Notes under the pieces: generated by a model
Told to the model about the DNA's origin: nothing
The model's input: only the letters and a program-made list of their open reading frames with translations
Databases searched by the model: none
Shown here: positions 43-26,398 of the stretch, in pieces
How positions within the stretch are numbered: position 1 is the first letter of the stretch
How the letters are laid out: each line of letters opens with the position of its first letter
From: a candidate division WOR-3 bacterium
Lineage (GTDB): Bacteria > Hydrothermota > Tepidihabitantia > SM23-42
DNA: 64,000 nucleotides
NCBI GenBank assembly: GCA_029858255.1
Contig: JAOUFJ010000007.1
Coordinates: 1-64,000, forward strand
Reading direction: 5' to 3'
Program-made: the position numbers and the translations under genes

Positions 43-2397
43 TTATTTCAGTAGTACGACCTTTTCAACCACCGCAGATTGTTCTGTCTCGAGTTTAACG
101 AAGTAGATTCCGGCAGAAGTTTTCCGGCCTGAGTTATCATTACCGTCCCACTGAACAGATATCGGATAACCGATAACAGATTTCAGATCAAAAGACCTGA
201 CCAGACGACCACTTGCGTCGTAGATACTCAGGCTGGATGCCATATCGCCGTTACCCAGCATGAAGGATATGCTTACCGTATTTTTGGATACTGTTGGAAC
301 AACCCTTAGCACCGGTTGAATGGCTTTCAAACCAGAACCATTCTCCGCGATTCCGATAAAGCTCGCCAGGTTACCCAGTTCCCATGCCAGCAGCGATGGA
401 TCGCCAGGACTCTCAGATGGGACTCGGTAGAATTGCGCGATGAGTCTCAGGGCGTTGTATGTTGTCGTATTCAGACCACTAAGGTCGACCGAATCCACGG
501 CTAACGCAGAATAGAAGCCAGTCGCATTGCCGGGCAGATCACCATCCGGGATCAATTGCCAGGTCGAACCATTGTTGTATTCTACCTGGATCCCGATCGA
601 ATCACCGGCCGTTGCTTTATACCAAGCCGCAGTTCCCCAGTTCGGACGGTTGTACATACCAGCCAAGTCATCAAAAACCACCGGCGTACTAGTGACGGTT
701 CCTTCGTTGCCAGAAGTCTGGAACGTGTACCTCAATGCTACGTTATCGCATGCTCCTGCCCAACCCCAGTGCGATGCCGAAGTGCTGTCACTGTAAAACC
801 AGTTGAACTGAACAGAATCACACGGCAGATAAGATGTGAGGTCGATGGTTGCCGTACCGCTCGCGCTCGTGGTATAGAGGGCGATATCGGTCCAGGTTGT
901 CCAGCTGCTTCCGGTAAACCGGCGCATCTTGACACGCATCTTCTCCCCGGTCTCATAGAGTCTGAAACCATAGCCGTATACAATATCCAGATCAGATGCA
1001 GCGGGAGGGATCGCAACCGCCGGAGATATCAATTCTTCGTTGTAACTAGTAGAACCGCTTCCAGCATCGTCATCCGAGTAGTAAGCATACGCTGAACCAT
1101 AGTCAGGCGGAGTGTAAGCACCGATGTCACCAGTTGTGCCTACTGTCCACTCATACGGGTCGCTGTTGCCATTAACCACGGTCCATCCAGCCGGCATGGT
1201 TCCGGTTTCGAAATCTTCAAAGAAGAAGGTATCGATCAACGTAGCACCGCCTGGTATGATTATTATGCTGTCACCGGCAACCGTCGTCGCGAAGAAGAGA
1301 CTCCCGCTGAATTGCTCGGCCTTGGTTTGATACCAGCTACACGTATTCACTGGAAGACCTGTGAGCACTGTAAGCGAATGCGCACTAGTGTATGGGGTCC
1401 ACAAGCCGGTTCCGCTCGGGTCTGACGCCCTTACCTTCCACCAATATGTCTCATTATTGGTAAGCGGGGACGGAAACGTAAAGTAAAAGTTGCTGCCGCT
1501 TGCCTGCGGTGAACTTGTTGTGCTCTCAGGATTGGCAAAGTTCGGATCAGTATCCCACATTATCCTGTACGCGATATCATCGCCCTGCGGGTCTACTGAA
1601 TTAAGCACAAGAGTAGGCTGCGATTCCGGCACACGCACACAGTTAAATGGCTGCACGATCGCAGGAATAGACGGCGCGCCGACGAGATCAGGCAGTTCGA
1701 CGATTCCTGCCTGAAAGACTTCTTTGTCGCCCGTATCCTCCTGAATCCAGGCGTAGATCCGGCACCTTTCTTGATCCCACCCTAAAGGTACATTGAAAGC
1801 ACGGCTGAAGGTCACAGAATCTCCGGGAGCGACGGTGACCGTTTCACCAAGTTCATTCGGCAGATAATCACGCGCAACATCGTTGTGCCAGGTATCACCG
1901 TTGGGCGCTACGTAATAACAACTATCCTCAACGATAACAAAATACACCCGCGCGGTTATGCTTGCGGTTGAGTCATTCCTGAATTGCGCATATATCGTAC
2001 CGTCACCGCGGTTCGGCATGTACATTCCCCACATTGTCACAGTTACCGGTGACGGTTGATTCATCCGGTTCGTTATAGCGGCCGAATAACCAGCCGACAC
2101 TTGATCGCCATCCACATAGCAATCCGGTGTGTAGGAGACGCCGTAGAAATTGAATCCCCGGTTTGCTCCTTCCGCACAATAAAGTGGATAGCTGCTCACA
2201 AGATGGATCTCGACGAGCGCCACCCGATCAGGATAAGTCGCTGCTATTTGTGCCAGTTGACCACTGACAGATGTGCAAGTGCCTCAGCCTTCCTGGTACA
2301 TTTCTTCAACCATGACCACTCGCTCTGCTCCAGCCGCGGTGTTGACAAGACCCAACCCCAGCAGTAACGCCAGGCTCATACCAACGAAACGCTTCAT
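43..2397 (-). CDS. Secreted thioredoxin-like selenoprotein with T9SS-type sorting domain
   Basis: Two open stretches in the same frame are separated by a single TGA (2284-2286). Read through, they give 784 residues. The start ATG at 2397 has an AGGAGG (2402-2407) and opens a signal peptide (about 1-24). Residues 38-41 then read U-G-T-C in a thioredoxin-like context (EEMYQEG before it, a cis-Pro-like YTPDCYVDG loop after it). Beyond lie a fibronectin-III-like region, a MAM/immune-inhibitor-A-like beta-sandwich beginning FFFEDFETG, and a C-terminal FlgD-like sorting domain ending KVVLLK. A hairpin with SECIS geometry follows the TGA. I infer an exported, surface-anchored redox protein with Sec38 and Cys41 as the active pair. 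The alternative is a nonsense mutation, but the domain continues intact across the TGA. Substrate unknown. Confidence 0.8.
2251..2269 (-). promoter_or_regulatory. Putative bacterial SECIS hairpin of the first selenoprotein
   Basis: On the minus strand a 7-bp stem (TGTCAGT with ACTGGCA, one G-U pair) closes a 5-nt loop GGTCA. The loop starts 21 nt after the in-frame TGA and its first two bases are G. Known bSECIS elements have an apical loop about 16-37 nt downstream with a G in its first two positions, so the geometry fits. It is a short hairpin and would be weak evidence alone; its value lies in following a UxxC codon context. Confidence 0.55.
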
Positions 2398-2722
2398 AAA
2401 ACCTCCTTTTTGCATAATAATGCCTCCCACGCAAAAACGTACTCTTTGCCCTTTTGTATATACGGTTCCCCGCCTATTGATGTACACCCCTGAATTCCGT
2501 TCTGAACTCGTAATTGTAAACATAATAAATACCCGCGTCAATGGTTATCGAAACTCCGTGTTCGTATCTCCCCGTAAATCCCACCCTCAATCGGAATTCC
2601 CAATGCCCATTGACTTTAGTTGAATAATGAACTATAATGTTGGGGGGTTATTCGGTTGCGGGGTTAGGAAAATGTAAACGGAAATCGGATCATTTGGGCA
2701 TGAAACGCAACTACATGATATT
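2398..2722. other. Divergent intergenic region
   Basis: This region separates two divergently transcribed secreted-protein genes. It holds the AGGAGG site of the minus-strand gene (2402-2407) and a strong plus-strand promoter (2610-2638). No convincing minus-strand promoter hexamer pair was found; TA-rich TATATA (near 2458-2463) is a weak -10 candidate. No RNA gene or repeat was seen. Confidence 0.5.
2610..2638 (+). promoter_or_regulatory. Sigma-70-type promoter for the CapA/PKD gene
   Basis: TTGACT at 2610-2615 and TATAAT at 2633-2638 are separated by 17 nt. The gene starts at 2723, which gives a leader of about 80 nt. Confidence 0.7.
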
Positions 2723-6648: not shown

Positions 6649-9600
6649 TCAGAAGTGAAAGCCCGTATCACTTAGCACCTTCAAACAAGCCTTTACGATT
6701 TTCACGTCATAGAGTTTCTTCTTGTTGACTTTTATCTCGGTAATGGCCTTATCTTTGCCGCGCGCCGGCCGGTATGGACGGTGCGCCATCATTGACTCAA
6801 CGACATCAGCGACCGCGAGAATCTTTGCTTCCATCAAAATATCGCTACCCTTAAGGCCCATGGGATATCCGGAACCATCGAGTCTCTCGTGATGCTGGAA
6901 TACGATTTCCGCAACCTGCCACGGAAATTCTATTGTCCTCAGTATATCATAACCGACGAGTACGTGATCTTTGACCAGGGCGAATTCCGCATCACTCAAA
7001 CTGCTTGGTTTGTTCAGTATCCCCGCCGGCACGTTTATCTTTCCGATATCATGCACGAGTGCGGCAACGTGCAGCCCCTCCTTCTGGTGACTGGGCAATT
7101 TCATTTTCTTGGCGATCGCGTCGGCCAAGATGGCAACGCGGTGCTGGTGACCAGCAGTATACGGGTCTCTTTTTTCTACCGCCGATGTCAACGCATTGAT
7201 CGTGTCCTCGAGCACTTTCTGCATCCGGTCGTAACTCTTACGCAATTCCTCCTGAGTCCGCTTGTAATCTGTCATGTCACGGGCAATACCCAGAACGACA
7301 GTTTTGCCGTCGATCTTCACCGGGTATGTTCTTATGCCCACGATTGTCTTACTTCCATCCTTTCGAGTAAGAGTGAACTCATCCGGGCCAGTTCGATGTC
7401 CCATGGCGTTACGAGCAAGAAGTTCATATATACTTGGGATCTGATCGGACGACAGCAATTTGGCCTTCACAAAACTCTTACCGATCAGCTCATGCTTTTT
7501 GTAGCCAACTATTTCCTCAATTGCCTTGTTACCATCGAGAAAATTTCCTTTCAGATCGGTCAGAAAATAGCCATCCGGCGCGTACTCGAACAACAACTTC
7601 AATCTTTCTTCTGAATTTTTTATTTCTTCTTCGGCTGTCTTTCGCAAGGTCACATCCCAAATGTAGGAACGAGTACCGATGATACTACCGTCATCCCTCA
7701 TCGCGGTCGCATCGCATTCAAGGTAGACAATCCCCCCATCACTACGAACTCCCCTGAATTCATGCCTGAACGTCTCGGTCTTCCCTTGAATGAGCGCCTG
7801 ACGGATTCTTACCACGCGCTCAAAATCATCAGGATGCACAATCGACTCCAACTCTTTCTTTCCCATTTCGTCAAATGAATATCCGAGCAACTCAGCAAAT
7901 CTTTTGTTGTAGTAACTGAATTTACCATCGCGGTCAATGAGCAATATCGCCGCACCTGCCTTTTCGACCAGATCTCGATAGCGCTCTTCAGATTCACGCA
8001 GTTTCATTTCTGATTGTTTGCGATCGCTAATATCACGTACGACGCCCTGGATCCATTTTCTATCGCCAATTTCGAATAGACTCGCAGAAACCTCGGCAGG
8101 AAAGACTGAACTATCCTTCTTCTTGAAATATATTTCGAAATTCACAAACCCGTCTTTGACGATGTCTTTGAATGCCTTAGCCGACTTTGCCACTTGGTCT
8201 GCCGGGTGGAAATTGGCGACTGTCATCTCGAGGATCTCCGCTTTTTTGTATCCGAAAAGCGCCTCTGCACGGCTATTCGCATCCGTGATATTGCCTGCCA
8301 CGTCATGTATGAAAATCGCATCATTGGAACTATGAAACAAGTTACGGTATTTCTCCTCGCTATCCTTCAATGCCCTTACCGCACGCTTCCGTTCTGTAAT
8401 ATCACGCGTGGTGGCAACAAATGCAATAGGCTTACCATGGCCATCTCTGATCAAAGATGCGTTGAGCTCTCCGTGGAAATGAGTACCGTCATTTTTCAGC
8501 AATACGTACTCCACGTCTCTCACTATCCCTTTCTCAAAGGTTTTCTTCATATTTGCCATGGCTTTCTTGTGATCTTTAGGGTCGATCATTTCAAATGCGC
8601 TCTTGCCGAGCAAATCTTTGGGCTTATCATAACCATGAAGTGTCAGGGTCTGCGGCGCTACATATGTGATCTTTCCCTCCAGGTCGGTGACCGTAACCGC
8701 CTCCGGAGTAGTATTGACCAGAGTCCGGTATCGATCCTCTGATTCTCTCAACTTTCTCTCGGCTTGTTTTCGTGCTGTAATATCACGATAGATGGCATAA
8801 ACGCCAACTTGATTCTTGTTGATTATTATTGGCGATGCTAGCACCGACACGTCGATCAGGGTACCATATTTGCGCCGGCGCGTGGCCTCGAGCGCAACAC
8901 TTTCGCCATTTAGAGCACGTCTTGTTATAGCCCGTGCATCCTGAAAATAATCCGCCGGCACTATGAGATCGTCGATTGATTTGCCGATTGCCTCATCGCT
9001 AGCATATCCGAATATTCTGCTGAATTCACTGTTGATACGCTGCACCACACCGTCACAATCAAGCATGGCGATGCCTTCCTGCGCGCTTGCGAATAACTGT
9101 TCAAGATAGCCTGTTTCGATTCTCAATGATTTCTGGACTTCCTCACGTGCCTTTACCTCCTGCTGCAAATCGTAATATGTCCGGGCGTTTCTCAGTGCGG
9201 TCGCCGCATACGTAGCAAAGACTTCGGTTATGACCAACTCATTGTCAGTAAACTCAGTGCCTGTCCGATCGAGACACATTGCACCTAATATCTGACCATC
9301 AACGATGAACGGCGCCGTGATCGCATGTTCATTCTCCTCATCCGGTGTGCCAGGAATGTGTTGTCCGCGCGGATCACTTCCAGTATTATTAAATATCATT
9401 GCTTTCTTTGCTTCGATTGCTTTTCCCGTGAAACTTGTATCTATATTCAATGGGGTGGCCAAGATCGCTTCCTCATACGGTGGGTCGATCGCAACAACGG
9501 GCTTGAGGGTCTTTTTATCGCTCTCGAGCAAGTAGATCGCGCAGCCGTCGGCCCGGATCATAGTGCGTGCGCTTGAGGCGATACGGGTGAGAACTTCCGT

Positions 9601-10083
9601 CACATCGAGACTCTCCACCAGATAACGGGCGGTTTCGAGCATCTCTTTCTGGTAACTCGTTGTTTTTCGTAATACTTCCTCGATCCTTCTGTTTTCTGAT
9701 ATATCAGTGAATGCCGCGAAATACCCGATAATCTCACCCTGCCGTGTTCTCCTGACGAGTGTTGAAACACTTACTGGAATCCTCAGATTACTGTTGCTTT
9801 TGAGTTCACAGAAAAAGTTACGGACAACGCCGTTTTGAAGAGTGAGTCGCTGCAGTTCACCAATTTTTTCCTTATCTACAAAGAAATCAGCAAGCAATCT
9901 CCCCACGAGTGTATCTTTTGAAGAACGTATCATCTCCTCCATGGTCGTGTCTAGATCCAATATCACACCCAGGGGGCTAACGTATGCGATCGGTGTTGGC
10001 AAGAACGCCCAGATGTCTTTTATGTAGTGTTCGAATTCAACGATAGAGGTGTCTCTGATATGCTCTTGAGGTGATTTTCTCAA
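6649..10083 (-). CDS. Multi-PAS/GAF sensor with HD-GYP phosphodiesterase domain
   Basis: A 1144-residue soluble sensor. Domain order is PAS (about 20-135), GAF (about 150-300), five more PAS units (about 320-945) and a C-terminal HD-GYP domain. The catalytic HDIGK is at 1011-1015 and HHERLDGSGYP ends near 1074, so all metal-site and GYP residues are present. The family hydrolyses cyclic di-GMP. No membrane segment is seen, so the signals should be cytosolic (redox, ligand or gas through PAS/GAF). The V4R-like gene upstream ends 3 nt before this start, so the two are co-transcribed and may share a signal. It converges with the UPF0045 gene. Confidence 0.9.
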   Translation of the reverse strand: MRKSPQEHIRDTSIVEFEHYIKDIWAFLPTPIAYVSPLGVILDLDTTMEEMIRSSKDTLVGRLLADFFVDKEKIGELQRLTLQNGVVRNFFCELKSNSNLRIPVSVSTLVRRTRQGEIIGYFAAFTDISENRRIEEVLRKTTSYQKEMLETARYLVESLDVTEVLTRIASSARTMIRADGCAIYLLESDKKTLKPVVAIDPPYEEAILATPLNIDTSFTGKAIEAKKAMIFNNTGSDPRGQHIPGTPDEENEHAITAPFIVDGQILGAMCLDRTGTEFTDNELVITEVFATYAATALRNARTYYDLQQEVKAREEVQKSLRIETGYLEQLFASAQEGIAMLDCDGVVQRINSEFSRIFGYASDEAIGKSIDDLIVPADYFQDARAITRRALNGESVALEATRRRKYGTLIDVSVLASPIIINKNQVGVYAIYRDITARKQAERKLRESEDRYRTLVNTTPEAVTVTDLEGKITYVAPQTLTLHGYDKPKDLLGKSAFEMIDPKDHKKAMANMKKTFEKGIVRDVEYVLLKNDGTHFHGELNASLIRDGHGKPIAFVATTRDITERKRAVRALKDSEEKYRNLFHSSNDAIFIHDVAGNITDANSRAEALFGYKKAEILEMTVANFHPADQVAKSAKAFKDIVKDGFVNFEIYFKKKDSSVFPAEVSASLFEIGDRKWIQGVVRDISDRKQSEMKLRESEERYRDLVEKAGAAILLIDRDGKFSYYNKRFAELLGYSFDEMGKKELESIVHPDDFERVVRIRQALIQGKTETFRHEFRGVRSDGGIVYLECDATAMRDDGSIIGTRSYIWDVTLRKTAEEEIKNSEERLKLLFEYAPDGYFLTDLKGNFLDGNKAIEEIVGYKKHELIGKSFVKAKLLSSDQIPSIYELLARNAMGHRTGPDEFTLTRKDGSKTIVGIRTYPVKIDGKTVVLGIARDMTDYKRTQEELRKSYDRMQKVLEDTINALTSAVEKRDPYTAGHQHRVAILADAIAKKMKLPSHQKEGLHVAALVHDIGKINVPAGILNKPSSLSDAEFALVKDHVLVGYDILRTIEFPWQVAEIVFQHHERLDGSGYPMGLKGSDILMEAKILAVADVVESMMAHRPYRPARGKDKAITEIKVNKKKLYDVKIVKACLKVLSDTGFHF

Positions 10084-10086
10084 AAC

Positions 10087-10686
10087 TCAACCCTCCCAAT
10101 CCACAAGAAATTCGTGGCACGAATCACCATTGCACGTGCAGTCTGTTTCTCTTACCTTCACCTTTGAGTTCGGGAACATGAATTTAAACAACCTTCCGAA
10201 ATAACCTTCGAGATACCTGCAATAAACTGGATGCAATGTAAAATCATAAAGACGGACTACCGCATGCCTTGTCTCTTCGTCCAGCGAGACCGCCTCTAAA
10301 CGCCCCGTATCATAATGCTTTGTCCAGTACTCAGGAGCATGACTAAACGCGACATGTGGTGAAATAAAAAACTTCATAAAGAGTTTCACAATGAATGAAT
10401 GCTTGGGCGCAGCATCACCCATTGCCACTATTTCCTCGTCAGACCAGTTAAACACGTCTTTCATGACCAGAAAAGAAAGAGCCCTCAAACTGAGTGCCAT
10501 CCATTCCATAGAACTGACATCCCCGTAGTTCAGTTCGTACTCCAAAACGCGCAGGCCGGCTTCGACTTTCTCCAACCCATCTCTGCCCTGTTTGTTCCTT
10601 ATATACTCCGCATCCGTCTCAAACACGGCACCACGAACTTGACCTTTTATCGCCATCAATTGTTCAATCTCATCCTTAGGCACCAT
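10087..10686 (-). CDS. V4R/HNOB-like small-molecule-binding protein
   Basis: A 199-residue protein. Its C-terminal part resembles the V4R / heme-NO-binding-like fold: helical N-terminal half, then a stretch ending TDCTCNGDSCHEFLVDW, the Cys-rich beta-hairpin typical of V4R-type sensor domains. Such domains bind small ligands or metals and often feed signalling proteins. The start has AAAGGAG 7 nt upstream. It lies first in an operon with the HD-GYP sensor, so a ligand-input role is a reasonable inference. Family assignment is by pattern only. Confidence 0.6.
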   Translation of the reverse strand: MVPKDEIEQLMAIKGQVRGAVFETDAEYIRNKQGRDGLEKVEAGLRVLEYELNYGDVSSMEWMALSLRALSFLVMKDVFNWSDEEIVAMGDAAPKHSFIVKLFMKFFISPHVAFSHAPEYWTKHYDTGRLEAVSLDEETRHAVVRLYDFTLHPVYCRYLEGYFGRLFKFMFPNSKVKVRETDCTCNGDSCHEFLVDWEG

Positions 10687-22466: not shown

Positions 22467-22988
22467 CTACAGCTCGATCTCCGTAGAAGCGTACACCTCG
22501 GGCGAGTAGACGTGACTATCGTTCGTGCCCCAGGCGAGAAAAACCAGGTAAGCATTTCCGACTTCGAGAACAACGTCTTGCGGATCACCGGAATTGAGCG
22601 GAATCGTAAAAGTAATTTCCGTCCCCCCGTTCTCGGTACCGGCTTTATCCGCCACATCATCGGTGCCGCCAAACACTGTATCGGGTAAATAGGCTTCCTC
22701 ACCCGTGCCGATATTGTCCTGGATGTACGCCGTATCACCGACGACATAACCCGTGATGATATTCGCGTCTTGAAGACCACTGAGCGGATCAATATCGAAA
22801 CCGATAAGCACCATACCAACGGTCGTCGCGCTCAACTTGACGAGCAGACTGTCCTGGGCATCATTGGTCTTCCAGCTCAAAGTGATCCCTTCGACTGTCT
22901 TGGTTTCGTACCCATCACCATCACCGCCGCATCCAACGAGCACTACTGCTGCCAGCAAGATTACCAGACCTGTCCCTAAGAACTTCAT
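22467..22988 (-). CDS. DOMON-domain lipoprotein
   Basis: A 173-residue lipoprotein with the signal MKFLGTGLVILLAAVVLVGC (lipobox LVGC) and a DOMON-like beta-sandwich (GITLSWKTNDAQDSLLVKLSATT, GMVLIGFDIDP, AYLVFLAWGTNDS). DOMON domains bind heme b or sugars and in many systems hand electrons to b-type membrane cytochromes. It is the last gene of a four-gene set whose first product is a mini-membrane protein with an HX13H motif. That points towards electron transfer, but heme binding is not proven by sequence alone. Confidence 0.65.
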   Translation of the reverse strand: MKFLGTGLVILLAAVVLVGCGGDGDGYETKTVEGITLSWKTNDAQDSLLVKLSATTVGMVLIGFDIDPLSGLQDANIITGYVVGDTAYIQDNIGTGEEAYLPDTVFGGTDDVADKAGTENGGTEITFTIPLNSGDPQDVVLEVGNAYLVFLAWGTNDSHVYSPEVYASTEIEL

Positions 22989-23008
22989 ATTTTACCTCCC
23001 TTGTTTGA

Positions 23009-23761
23009 TCAAAACCTGAGGAGACGCTGGATGTTGAACCCAATATATATGTCATTACTTGTCGTGCCCAACATCAATCGCCTCGGACCTGTGTTCCAGC
23101 CATTACCAATCTGCAACATAAAACGATGACCATCCGTGTCAACCCGCAGACCCGCCGCAAAGTAATTCTCTGGTCCCGTAATCGTTTCTTCTTCATCCAG
23201 AACCGGATAGTACTCACCGATCAAACTGATACGCTCGATCGGTCCGAACCACCAGTCAAAACCGACCTGGAGGCCAATGCCCAACCCGAATTTCTCGTCG
23301 TAGCTGTCATAGGCAAAATTGATGACCGGCGAAAAGGAGTTAGCGATCGGATAACTTTGAACTGCAGTGCTGTAGAACAAATTGCCGTTCCGCTCACCAT
23401 TGCGCTCAAAATTGAAGTACTGCACATCGGCCTGTACCATCAGAAATATCTGAGGTATATGATGCGCGTAACTCGCACCGACTCTGTACTCGCCCTCGTG
23501 GGTCGTGTACGCAGCATTGAGCTCTAACCGTGGGACAATCGCATACCTCAGGCCGAGGCTGACGTTCGCACCGAGATCAAGGCCGAAAAAATTCTCAATG
23601 GGTTCTTCGGTCAACACCCCTTTGAATCTATGCTGTAATTCGAAAAGCAGTGACTTGCCATCAAGATTTGACGGTACCTTGAGATTCAACATGCTCGTCT
23701 CAAACGCAAACAGCTGAGAACCCGCAATTAGTATGACTAAAGATAAGACGATCTTTTTCAA
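23009..23761 (-). CDS. Outer-membrane beta-barrel protein (DUF5777-like)
   Basis: About 250 residues: signal peptide, then alternating amphipathic beta strands ending with an aromatic C-terminal residue (RLLRF), as expected for an outer-membrane barrel. The phrases SLLFELQHRFKG and FFGLDLGANVSLGLRYAI match DUF5777 proteins. I place the start at TTG (23761), which has AAGGAG 6 nt upstream and opens a clean signal peptide (LKKIVLSLVILIAGSQLFAF). An upstream ATG at 23815 would add 18 non-signal residues. It lies inside the DOMON gene set. Confidence 0.72.
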   Translation of the reverse strand: MKKIVLSLVILIAGSQLFAFETSMLNLKVPSNLDGKSLLFELQHRFKGVLTEEPIENFFGLDLGANVSLGLRYAIVPRLELNAAYTTHEGEYRVGASYAHHIPQIFLMVQADVQYFNFERNGERNGNLFYSTAVQSYPIANSFSPVINFAYDSYDEKFGLGIGLQVGFDWWFGPIERISLIGEYYPVLDEEETITGPENYFAAGLRVDTDGHRFMLQIGNGWNTGPRRLMLGTTSNDIYIGFNIQRLLRF

Positions 23762-23783
23762 TGGAAACTCCTTGGCCGGGCCT

Positions 23784-24146
23784 TCATTCAGTTTTCTCTC
23801 CGGGTTGCTCTGCACTGATAATCAACTCAGACTTTTTCTTACCGGATATGTTGCAGTAGCCAATAACGGTGACCTTGTCACCCTCGTCTACATCAATTAT
23901 CTTATATACTACTTCATGCTGTTCGCCATCCATCTGACGGGTGAATGTCTGTTCGACTTGCTTCTTACCGTTCACCTCAACGACCACCTTTTTAACATAG
24001 TGCTTTGATGCGTCGTTTACGCTGTGTTCTATTACGGCACTGAGAACCTTTGTATCACTATCATATTCCAGCGATACGTTTTTTGGCGGATGAGCGAAGA
24101 GCGGCACGGCCACCAGTACTATCAAAACAGTGACGAATGCCTTCAT
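23784..24146 (-). CDS. Small periplasmic beta-sandwich protein
   Basis: A 120-residue exported protein: signal peptide MKAFVTVLIVLVAVPLFA, then HPPKNVSLEYD and a compact beta domain (KHYVKKVVVEVNGKK, VTVIGYCN). The pattern recalls the immunoglobulin-like SoxZ/desulfoferrodoxin class and a widespread AHPP-type anaerobe family. The metal ligands of desulfoferrodoxin are not conserved. It sits between the mini-membrane protein and the barrel and is likely part of the same complex. Function unknown. Confidence 0.65.
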   Translation of the reverse strand: MKAFVTVLIVLVAVPLFAHPPKNVSLEYDSDTKVLSAVIEHSVNDASKHYVKKVVVEVNGKKQVEQTFTRQMDGEQHEVVYKIIDVDEGDKVTVIGYCNISGKKKSELIISAEQPGEKTE

Positions 24147-24416: not shown

Positions 24417-26375
24417 TTATTTTGTAATTGTGAGCCCGCTCGTGTGCCGCTTCCCCTCGCACTCGATATCAATAATGTAGCACCCAGCCGGTAGGTCAAG
24501 AGATATATCCGTCATTCCGACATAGTATCCTTCTCGTGCGTGAACACATCGCCCGAGTGCATCATAGATTCTTATGCTCGCATATCCTGCAAGGCCTTTC
24601 ATGTATATTGTCAAGGCGCCGCGAGACGGGTTTGGACTGACGGTTACACGGAATCCTGACAGGCCCGAGGTTTCTCCGGCCTGTTCTTCAATAGAAGTAG
24701 CCAGTAGCCCATCAATAACACGCATGATCTCCTGCGGATCATATTCGTCCGACCAGTAGCGTACAATGCCCTGTTGATCGATTATGTAATCCTGCGGATA
24801 AGGCGCTTCTGGGTAAGGAACGCGGTACGTTGTGTAGAGGTTCTGATCATCTATCAAACCAATAAAACGCTGGCCAAATACTTCAATGAATTCCATCAGC
24901 TCGGCGGCACTCGAACTGATCTCGAATATGACAACCTCTGAAGTATCGTAGCGGGAAAAGATGGTGGCGTCCGTGGCCGCAGCCTGCGACCCACAGAGCG
25001 GTCACCAGGCACCGCCGAATTCCAGGAATACAACCTTACCGTGATATTGAGAAAGTGTATGGTAGTTATTATCAGACCCGAGCAGTGTGAAATCCGGTGC
25101 GGTCGAGCCAGCCTGTGGAAAACTTGTATTGTTCTTATAGACCCCTTGTATTTTATCAGGTTCATCCGGGTCATTGGAGTGGTAAGTAATACCGCCATAT
25201 GCGCTTCCCGGACCACTCGCCGTTACAGTCACGACCTGTGAATCACCGGGTAACACGAAAAAAGAATTTGGATTAATCAAAATACCCGAAGGTGCACTGA
25301 TAGAACCGACGTTAAGAGTGGACATGCCCGTGTTGCGAATGATGCCTAATGTTTCTGCAGTAGTACTTACGACGCCAAAATCAACAGTCTGTGGATACAC
25401 ATCAATATCCGGGCCAGGATCTGCACCGATTTTGTAGCACGAGATACCACGCCAATCAGCAACCACGATCAGACTATCGCTCCGGATATCGGCACCATGT
25501 GCCCAGGTCTTTGTATTTTCCCAACCGGCCGCTACAATATTGTACGGGTCGGTGACATCGAATAGCTCCATGATGCGCCAGGAACCGCAGATTATCGTGC
25601 TATCGATGGTTCCCGCTCCCCACACGCAGCCTCCAGTGGAAATCGTATCACAAATCACGGGATCATATGGTTCTGTTATGTCAATAGCTGCAAGACCTTC
25701 AGAACCAAGGGATACAGCGAGAATATTTCCCAGAGTGTTTATGTCGTTTGCCACGCCTGGCAGTGACAGCGTCGAAACCGGGTGCAATCCTCCTTCCAGT
25801 CCGATGACGAGAAGACCGTGAAGACCGTTCGCCACGTAGAGGAACGAATCAATGACGACAACATTCCAGGCCGCTGAACTGTCCAACGCGAATTCGCCCA
25901 CCTTGTAGGGGTTCTGTAGATCTACAACACTCACGGCGTAGATGCCATTCTGGTGAGCGGCGCAATAGAGTATGCTATCAACCAAGACACCGCCTTCGAG
26001 CGCCTCAAGCGTACCTGGCGGATCGTATTGCCCAAGAAGCAGGGGCATCCCCGGCCCAGAAATATCCCATATTGTAACACCCGAACGCCGGCAGAAAGCA
26101 AACAAAAGCGTATCGCCAGAAGCAGTACACCGCCATGCCGCAGGCCCCGATGCAAAGACACGCAGGGGATTGATCGGATCAGAAATATCATATAATTCCA
26201 GACCCGTGCTGTACCCATCGACAACGTACGCCCAGTTACCAACGATCTCAACATCCACGATATGTGCCGGGGTCTGCTCGTTATGCCCAAGATACTCGAG
26301 ATTGTCGAAACCCGCTTGGCCTGTTCCGAACAGAAACAGCGAAGTCAATGCAATATGAAAGAAGGAATTTCTCAT
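24417..26375 (-). CDS. Secreted LVIVD-repeat/redoxin selenoprotein with sorting domain
   Basis: An in-frame TGA at 25002-25004 splits what is otherwise one frame of 652 residues. Order: signal peptide (MRNSFFHIALTSLFLFGTG), LVIVD-type beta-propeller repeats (about 25-330), an ASPM/SPD-2/Hydin-like Ig domain (about 335-425), a TlpA-like redoxin (about 430-585) and a FlgD-like sorting domain (about 595-652, VSPNPSRGALTIY). The redoxin reads VVFLEFGGAW-U-PLC, so Sec458 replaces the first Cys of the WCxxC motif. A strong hairpin follows. The ATG at 26375 has GGGAG 5 nt upstream. It probably reduces or oxidises surface disulfides; substrate unknown. The gene starts 45 nt after folE. Confidence 0.82.
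24971..24996 (-). promoter_or_regulatory. Putative bacterial SECIS hairpin of the second selenoprotein
   Basis: The minus strand from 24996 folds into an 11-bp GC-rich stem with one bulged G and a GGC apical loop. The loop begins 18 nt after the TGA and starts with G. Distance and loop fit the bSECIS pattern, and this stem is considerably stronger than the one in the first selenoprotein. Confidence 0.6.
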
Positions 26376-26382
26376 TTTCTCT

Positions 26383-26398
26383 CCCACCTTACGGTGAG
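26383..26398 (-). promoter_or_regulatory. Hairpin overlapping the ribosome-binding site
   Basis: On the minus strand CTCACC, the tetraloop GTAA and GGTGGG form a 6-bp stem whose 3' arm contains part of the Shine-Dalgarno sequence of the second selenoprotein. It could lower translation, but no ligand-binding structure is visible. Confidence 0.3.

Follow-up and report, generated by a model that had tools for sequence, protein, structure and literature searches.

A gene on the minus strand of the window (the whole stretch of DNA that was analysed, 64,000 nucleotides from a candidate division WOR-3 bacterium) very probably encodes an exported selenoenzyme, namely a TlpA/ResA-type oxidoreductase whose selenocysteine (Sec) would be inserted at an in-frame UGA under the direction of a bSECIS hairpin, and whose export would proceed by type IX secretion. 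In particular, the comparison of homologous sequences strongly supports the UGA at positions 25004-25002 as a Sec codon and speaks against a broken gene. The evidence, observed directly, comprises a UGA conserved in 11 of 11 genes, a hairpin that covaries and is constrained at synonymous sites, the sel genes of the same genome, the domain make-up of the protein, and sprA, a gene of the type IX secretion system. This evidence supports the selenoprotein interpretation that an earlier note had given of this DNA. The note's own arguments, from a single hairpin and from the coincidence of two in-frame TGAs, are weak; the interpretation is nevertheless right, because the evidence from homologues carries it.

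The gene and its domain make-up

When TGA is translated as Sec (U), the minus strand from 26387 to 24417 forms one open frame, in which TGA occurs only at 25004-25002. (The earlier note left the strand of the gene unstated; read on the plus strand, 24417-26375 contains stops throughout.) Because a good Shine-Dalgarno sequence, GGTGGGAG, precedes ATG 26375, this codon is the likely start, which makes Sec residue 458; counted from GTG 26387 it is residue 462. Beyond the TGA the frame is open, as had been claimed, for 194 residues rather than 195, and ends at the TAA at 24417. The features of the locus are as follows.

24417..26375, minus strand: predicted selenoprotein gene, 652 aa from ATG 26375, a single frame with one TGA
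26381..26388, minus strand: Shine-Dalgarno sequence, upstream of ATG 26375, read from the sequence
26313..26375, minus strand: putative signal peptide MRNSFFHIALTSLFLFGTGQA, read by eye
25428..26312, minus strand: LVIVD-repeat beta-propeller (PF08309, 32.2 bits, cut-off 20.2), all-beta in the structural model
25170..25412, minus strand: Ig-like domain, HYDIN/VesB-like (PF22544, 21.1 bits, E 3.6e-4, below the cut-off of 25.5)
24756..25109, minus strand: Redoxin / AhpC-TSA (TlpA-ResA-like) thioredoxin-fold domain (PF00578, PF08534)
25002..25004, minus strand: in-frame TGA, Sec codon, first residue of W-U-P-L-C
24993..24995, minus strand: resolving Cys, the second of the two redox residues in UxxC, invariant in alignments A1 and A4
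24967..24999, minus strand: bSECIS hairpin, upper stem 24975-24991, apical loop GGC 24982-24984, placed by fold, covariation and five invariant third bases
24441..24638, minus strand: C-terminal secretion (sorting) domain of type IX type (PF18962, TIGR04183)

The earlier description of an LVIVD propeller joined to a redoxin and a sorting domain agrees with Pfam, in which the LVIVD, AhpC-TSA/Redoxin and Por_Secre_tail matches all exceed their cut-offs. The redoxin domain does so clearly (PF00578, 50 bits against a curated cut-off of 26; PF08534, 38.3 against 26.6) and the sorting tail just does so (PF18962, Por_Secre_tail, 28.2 against 27 bits; TIGR04183, 26.1 against 23 bits); in one homologue, L054 of genome G056, no Por_Secre_tail match was found at E <= 1e-3. 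The PF22544 match reaches 26.3 bits (cut-off 25.5) in the homologue L113. A full-length structural model is of moderate confidence (pLDDT 69.9), and its top Foldseek matches are beta-propellers. The redoxin domain spans the TGA, so that homology lies on both sides of the codon, around which the protein reads F-G-G-A-W-U-P-L-C-G (predicted peptide over the Sec site, FGGAW-U-PLCGSQAAATDATIFSR). Consistent with the claim that the TGA occupies the first Cys of a TlpA-type WCxxC motif, alignment with Cys-containing redoxins, which the earlier note had proposed as a check, places Sec opposite the first Cys of the WCPHC of ResA, and related redoxins carry TGC at the site.

The only shared neighbours are ftsH-folE, which lie upstream in the window and in genomes G007 and G022 and are not conserved beside the other homologues; we therefore derived no function from an operon. 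Downstream on the same strand (22467-24146, minus) are genes for a DOMON domain protein, for a membrane beta-barrel with DUF5777 and for a protein that weakly resembles desulfoferrodoxin (below its cut-off), which are possibly an extracytoplasmic redox unit.

A TGA conserved in two phyla and the selenium machinery

Whole-genome searches in two phyla (WOR-3, and Calditrichota with its relatives) identified ten further genes of the propeller, Ig and redoxin architecture: one in a congener (79% identity), two in G056, one each in G057, G119 and a Calditrichota MAG, and four divergent ones in relatives of that MAG, with identities that descend to about 28%. All 11 genes carry TGA at the same codon, within the motif W-U-P-[L/T]-C-G. 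None of the 11, in either phylum, has TGT or TGC there, which answers, as far as sequence can, the refuting condition of the earlier note (reads with TGT/TGC), and no homologue of the architecture has TAA or TAG. Nor did we find a Cys form of the architecture: large Cys redoxins were checked in both phyla, and none has the propeller. In a partial twelfth copy (G022) the contig edge falls before the motif. (The homologue of the congener G007 lies in two distant pieces, L059 and L060; as both halves abut runs of N, we regard this as a scaffolding artefact of the MAG and not as a truly split gene.)

The same searches yielded 27 further Sec redoxin sites, in both phyla, that are free of the propeller architecture and nearly all of which are UxxC. 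Such propeller-less UxxC Sec redoxins occur in WOR-3 and Calditrichota-related genomes (L057, L088, L094-L112, L122, L125, L132 and L133), and many of them share the hairpin core GCGCGGAGUUGCCGCGC. In G137 and G138, which hold several copies, the hairpin is placed differently, and a Sec redoxin of G119 (L096, 1615-1659) reads U-S-G-S, having lost the resolving Cys while its hairpin is intact.

The sel genes, whose absence had likewise been named as refuting, are present in the genome: selA, selB, selD and tRNA-Sec all score over their cut-offs, with selA, selB and tRNA-Sec within about 5 kb of each other on contig C2 and selD about 10 kb off. (The selD gene is itself a selenoprotein gene, at C2:184234-185139 of genome G000 (L061, 1202-2236), with Sec as residue 18 in KCAGUASK.) Across the WOR-3 phylum, with TGA-redoxin matches taken at E <= 1e-8 and selA scored over its cut-off, selA is found in all 16 genomes that have such redoxins; in the whole set of 147 genomes it occurs in 59. 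On the Calditrichota side selA is present in all nine genomes with TGA-redoxins, but as it also occurs in 7 of the 10 genomes without them, co-occurrence says little in that phylum. One genome there, the Calditrichota MAG G147 (that of L021), carries two selA genes, both full-length and each on its own contig. The initial idea that selA adjoins the architecture gene in the Calditrichota genome was dropped, the contig numbering being different. In two genomes of one genus that have no selA, G046 and G051, the corresponding codon of a related redoxin is TGC (L153 and L152, respectively); the hairpin is decayed in the former (-4.1 kcal/mol), and a relic of it persists in the latter. Related redoxins of selA-less genomes thus show a natural replacement of Sec by Cys.

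The hairpin after the UGA and the rival readings of the TGA

Folding of the region predicts a hairpin with a GGC loop, 17 nt past the UGA, at -18.5 kcal/mol. The published bSECIS consensus has an apical loop of 3-9 nt with G in its first two positions, a spacing of 16-37 nt, a stem of 4-16 bp and an MFE of at most -7.5 kcal/mol (PMC13188914, Fig. 2A), and the query hairpin agrees with it in its 3-nt loop, GGC (the consensus start of such a loop being GG or GU), its 17-nt spacing and its energy below -7.5 kcal/mol. The same consensus describes 36 of 38 Sec redoxins (two fail as single sequences) and also 174 of 1200 random TGA triplets of the window (14.5%). As a single sequence, moreover, the hairpin lacks significance (z = -1.19), with 26 of 200 shuffles folding equally well. 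The earlier claim of a strong stem with a GGC loop at the expected distance is therefore weak as an argument from one hairpin, and significance beyond chance comes from the comparison of homologues and not from the single-sequence fold or the consensus. A scan with Rfam at gathering cut-offs matched tRNA-Asp alone and gave no SECIS match. The hairpin presumably resembles the fdhF-type bSECIS of E. coli, which like it is a short hairpin directly after the UGA with a small apical loop that begins with G, although the two differ in sequence.

Among seven close homologues, the third base is invariant in only 15 of 438 degenerate codon columns, and 5 of these 15 stand in a row at codons +4 to +8, exactly where the hairpin lies; no other run exceeds 2. 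For covariation we used 38 Sec-redoxin genes, the 11 of the architecture and the 27 others, in a gap-free codon register (six of the 38, from G137 and G138, lie outside the common hairpin register). Over the six-pair stem 88.7% of cells are paired, as compared with 53.2% in shuffled alignments and 33-56% when the stem is slid. Changes on both sides of a pair affect all six pairs and number 71 cells, against 22 in shuffles, these counts coming from related sequences and not from independent events. The covariation score is 0.80 against 0.18 shuffled, and none of 500 shuffles attains the values of the hairpin, which is not a probability, since the structure came from members of the set and the sequences are related; the contrast in pairing between the stem and its slid versions is still large. 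Covariation and the constraint on synonymous sites, both read from aligned genes, support the view that the hairpin is under selection.

Other in-frame TGAs of the window bear on how the one at 25004-25002 is to be read. The gene at 43-2541 (minus), with a TGA at 2284-2286, is probably the selenoprotein that the earlier note had counted first: its N-terminal part weakly matches the model of the Omp28-related selenoprotein (NF045500, 49.9 of 200 bits), and it has the Sec motif EGUGTC, a cleaved-adhesin stretch and a FlgD-Ig/sorting tail, as in a predicted exported protein. A further candidate was rejected. At 6649-10686 (minus), the TGA 10087-10089 separates a 199-aa ORF from a PAS/GAF/HD-GYP protein in the same frame, and because three congeners carry TAA at this position we regard it as an ordinary two-gene junction. 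The argument that two such TGAs in 64 kb speak against random nonsense mutations is thus an unsound test, the TGA 10087-10089 being an ordinary stop; as judged from the congeners, the junction is a useful negative control, in which a real stop appears to drift between TAA and TGA.

A lone TGA in an otherwise open frame looks like a fresh mutation, and the hairpin by itself adds no significance, as a nonsense mutation, a pseudogene or an assembly error would predict; a 457-aa protein would then end at the TGA and the redoxin half would be dead. We consider this very improbable, as the same TGA recurs in 11 genes of two phyla, in each of which the frame and the motif are undamaged before and after it, the hairpin covaries, and the genome has sel genes. 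Even less probable is a pair of adjacent genes, with a propeller protein that stops at the TGA and a redoxin started separately. A downstream start codon does exist (ATG 24896, giving 24417..24896), and such a junction does occur in the window at TGA 10087-10089. However, ATG 24896 lies past the UxxC motif, so that the second protein would be made without an active site. In every homologue the motif extends across the TGA, and whereas the true junction drifts to TAA in congeners, the Sec site is always TGA. Genome-wide reassignment of TGA, for example to Trp, would also leave the frame open and would put a residue other than Sec at the site, but it is scarcely credible either, because TGA ends 21 of the 51 main ORFs of the window. 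The genome, moreover, has the full Sec machinery, and in the selA-less genomes the corresponding codon of the related redoxin is TGC rather than TGG.

Redoxin chemistry, export and known systems

The model of the redoxin domain (pLDDT 90.5), predicted with 33 Sec redoxins, has a thioredoxin fold, and its first Foldseek match is the ResA-type structure 4nmu; Bcp and AhpE structures were also matched. True peroxiredoxins have a peroxidatic PxxxTxxC/U motif, which is missing here, the surroundings of Sec being GGAWUPLC. The domain resembles ResA but does not count as ResA proper, as it scores far below the cut-off of the subfamily model NF002854 (49.1 of 170 bits). Given the ResA-type first match and the absence of the PxxxTxxU motif, the predicted chemistry is most likely thiol/selenol-disulfide exchange through U-x-x-C. 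The main functional rival keeps the inserted Sec and makes the domain a peroxidase of the Prx/AhpE/Bcp kind. The best Pfam family, AhpC-TSA, and the Bcp and AhpE matches favour it; the missing peroxidatic motif, the alignment of Sec with the first Cys of ResA and the rank of 4nmu speak against it, and we judge it unlikely, if far less so than the rival readings of the TGA. The genome also encodes a homologue of the SprA translocon protein (381.9 against 200 bits), and with a sorting domain over its cut-off and SprA in the genome the protein is a predicted type IX cargo; from the tail and the sprA homologue we infer type IX secretion as its export route.

In the mechanism that we infer for thiol/selenol-disulfide exchange, the bSECIS hairpin right after the codon would recruit SelB and tRNA-Sec, which would insert Sec at UGA 25004-25002. 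The signal peptide would take the product across the inner membrane, and the type IX-type C-terminal sorting domain would send it to the cell surface or the medium. There the redoxin domain would act as a thiol/selenol-disulfide oxidoreductase of the TlpA/ResA type: the Sec of U-P-L-C would attack the disulfide of the substrate (or a peroxide), and the resulting mixed selenenyl-sulfide would be resolved by the Cys that lies three residues further on. The most likely role of the propeller and the Ig domain would be to keep the enzyme attached to a partner or substrate at the surface, and the model suggests the propeller as a docking scaffold. More tentatively, these proteins may represent Sec-only surface-exported oxidoreductases of WOR-3 and Calditrichota, which would perform selenol chemistry outside the outer membrane by means of type IX secretion and a propeller scaffold, and in which Cys could not replace Sec.

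Gene callers split this gene at the TGA, so that an annotation would list a propeller protein and, apart from it, a headless redoxin. Read through the TGA, the gene extends the selenoproteome to an architecture outside the 2026 catalogue of prokaryotic selenoproteins, in candidate phyla on which our literature search returned no relevant work about selenoproteins. With 11 Sec genes and no Cys form, the family offers a clean system for asking why some exported redox enzymes need selenium, and the 38 hairpins in alignment provide a set of covarying bSECIS elements.

Sec redoxins in themselves were already known, since the 2026 catalogue lists a Prx-like thiol:disulfide oxidoreductase (PF00578, UxxC) and a 'Redoxin family protein' (PF08534, UxxC) (PMC13188914, Table 1). 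What appears new, by sequence comparison, is the exported propeller, Ig and redoxin architecture with no known Cys forms, which is absent from PMC13188914: that paper describes neither a propeller fusion nor a type IX one, and the words 'propeller' and 'secretion' do not occur in it. Our literature search returned no publication that links a selenoprotein with LVIVD or with Omp28, and nothing relevant on selenoproteins and type IX secretion, the sole match being unrelated. A deep-Sep scan of over 44,000 groundwater MAGs has been reported (PMC13188914), and the propeller-redoxin family may sit unnamed among those results.

The Omp28-related selenoprotein (NF045500), which is GOS_C in the catalogue (PMC13188914), has in 43-2541 a relative within the same window that is likewise predicted to be exported, with a C-terminal sorting/FlgD-Ig tail; its N-terminal domain, however, is unrelated to the propeller-redoxin, and its Sec motif is U-G-T-C. 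The Prx-like and Redoxin UxxC proteins of the catalogue belong to the same redoxin family and, as here, have Sec first in UxxC, but no entry of the catalogue names a propeller, Ig domain or sorting tail, all of which are fused in the present protein, for which no Cys form was found. Finally, the ResA/TlpA oxidoreductases (4nmu, 1su9, 2ls5) share the thioredoxin fold, and their W-C-x-x-C aligns with W-U-P-L-C; whereas they have Cys first in the motif, the protein described here has Sec in that position, within a 652-aa multidomain protein that is predicted to be exported.
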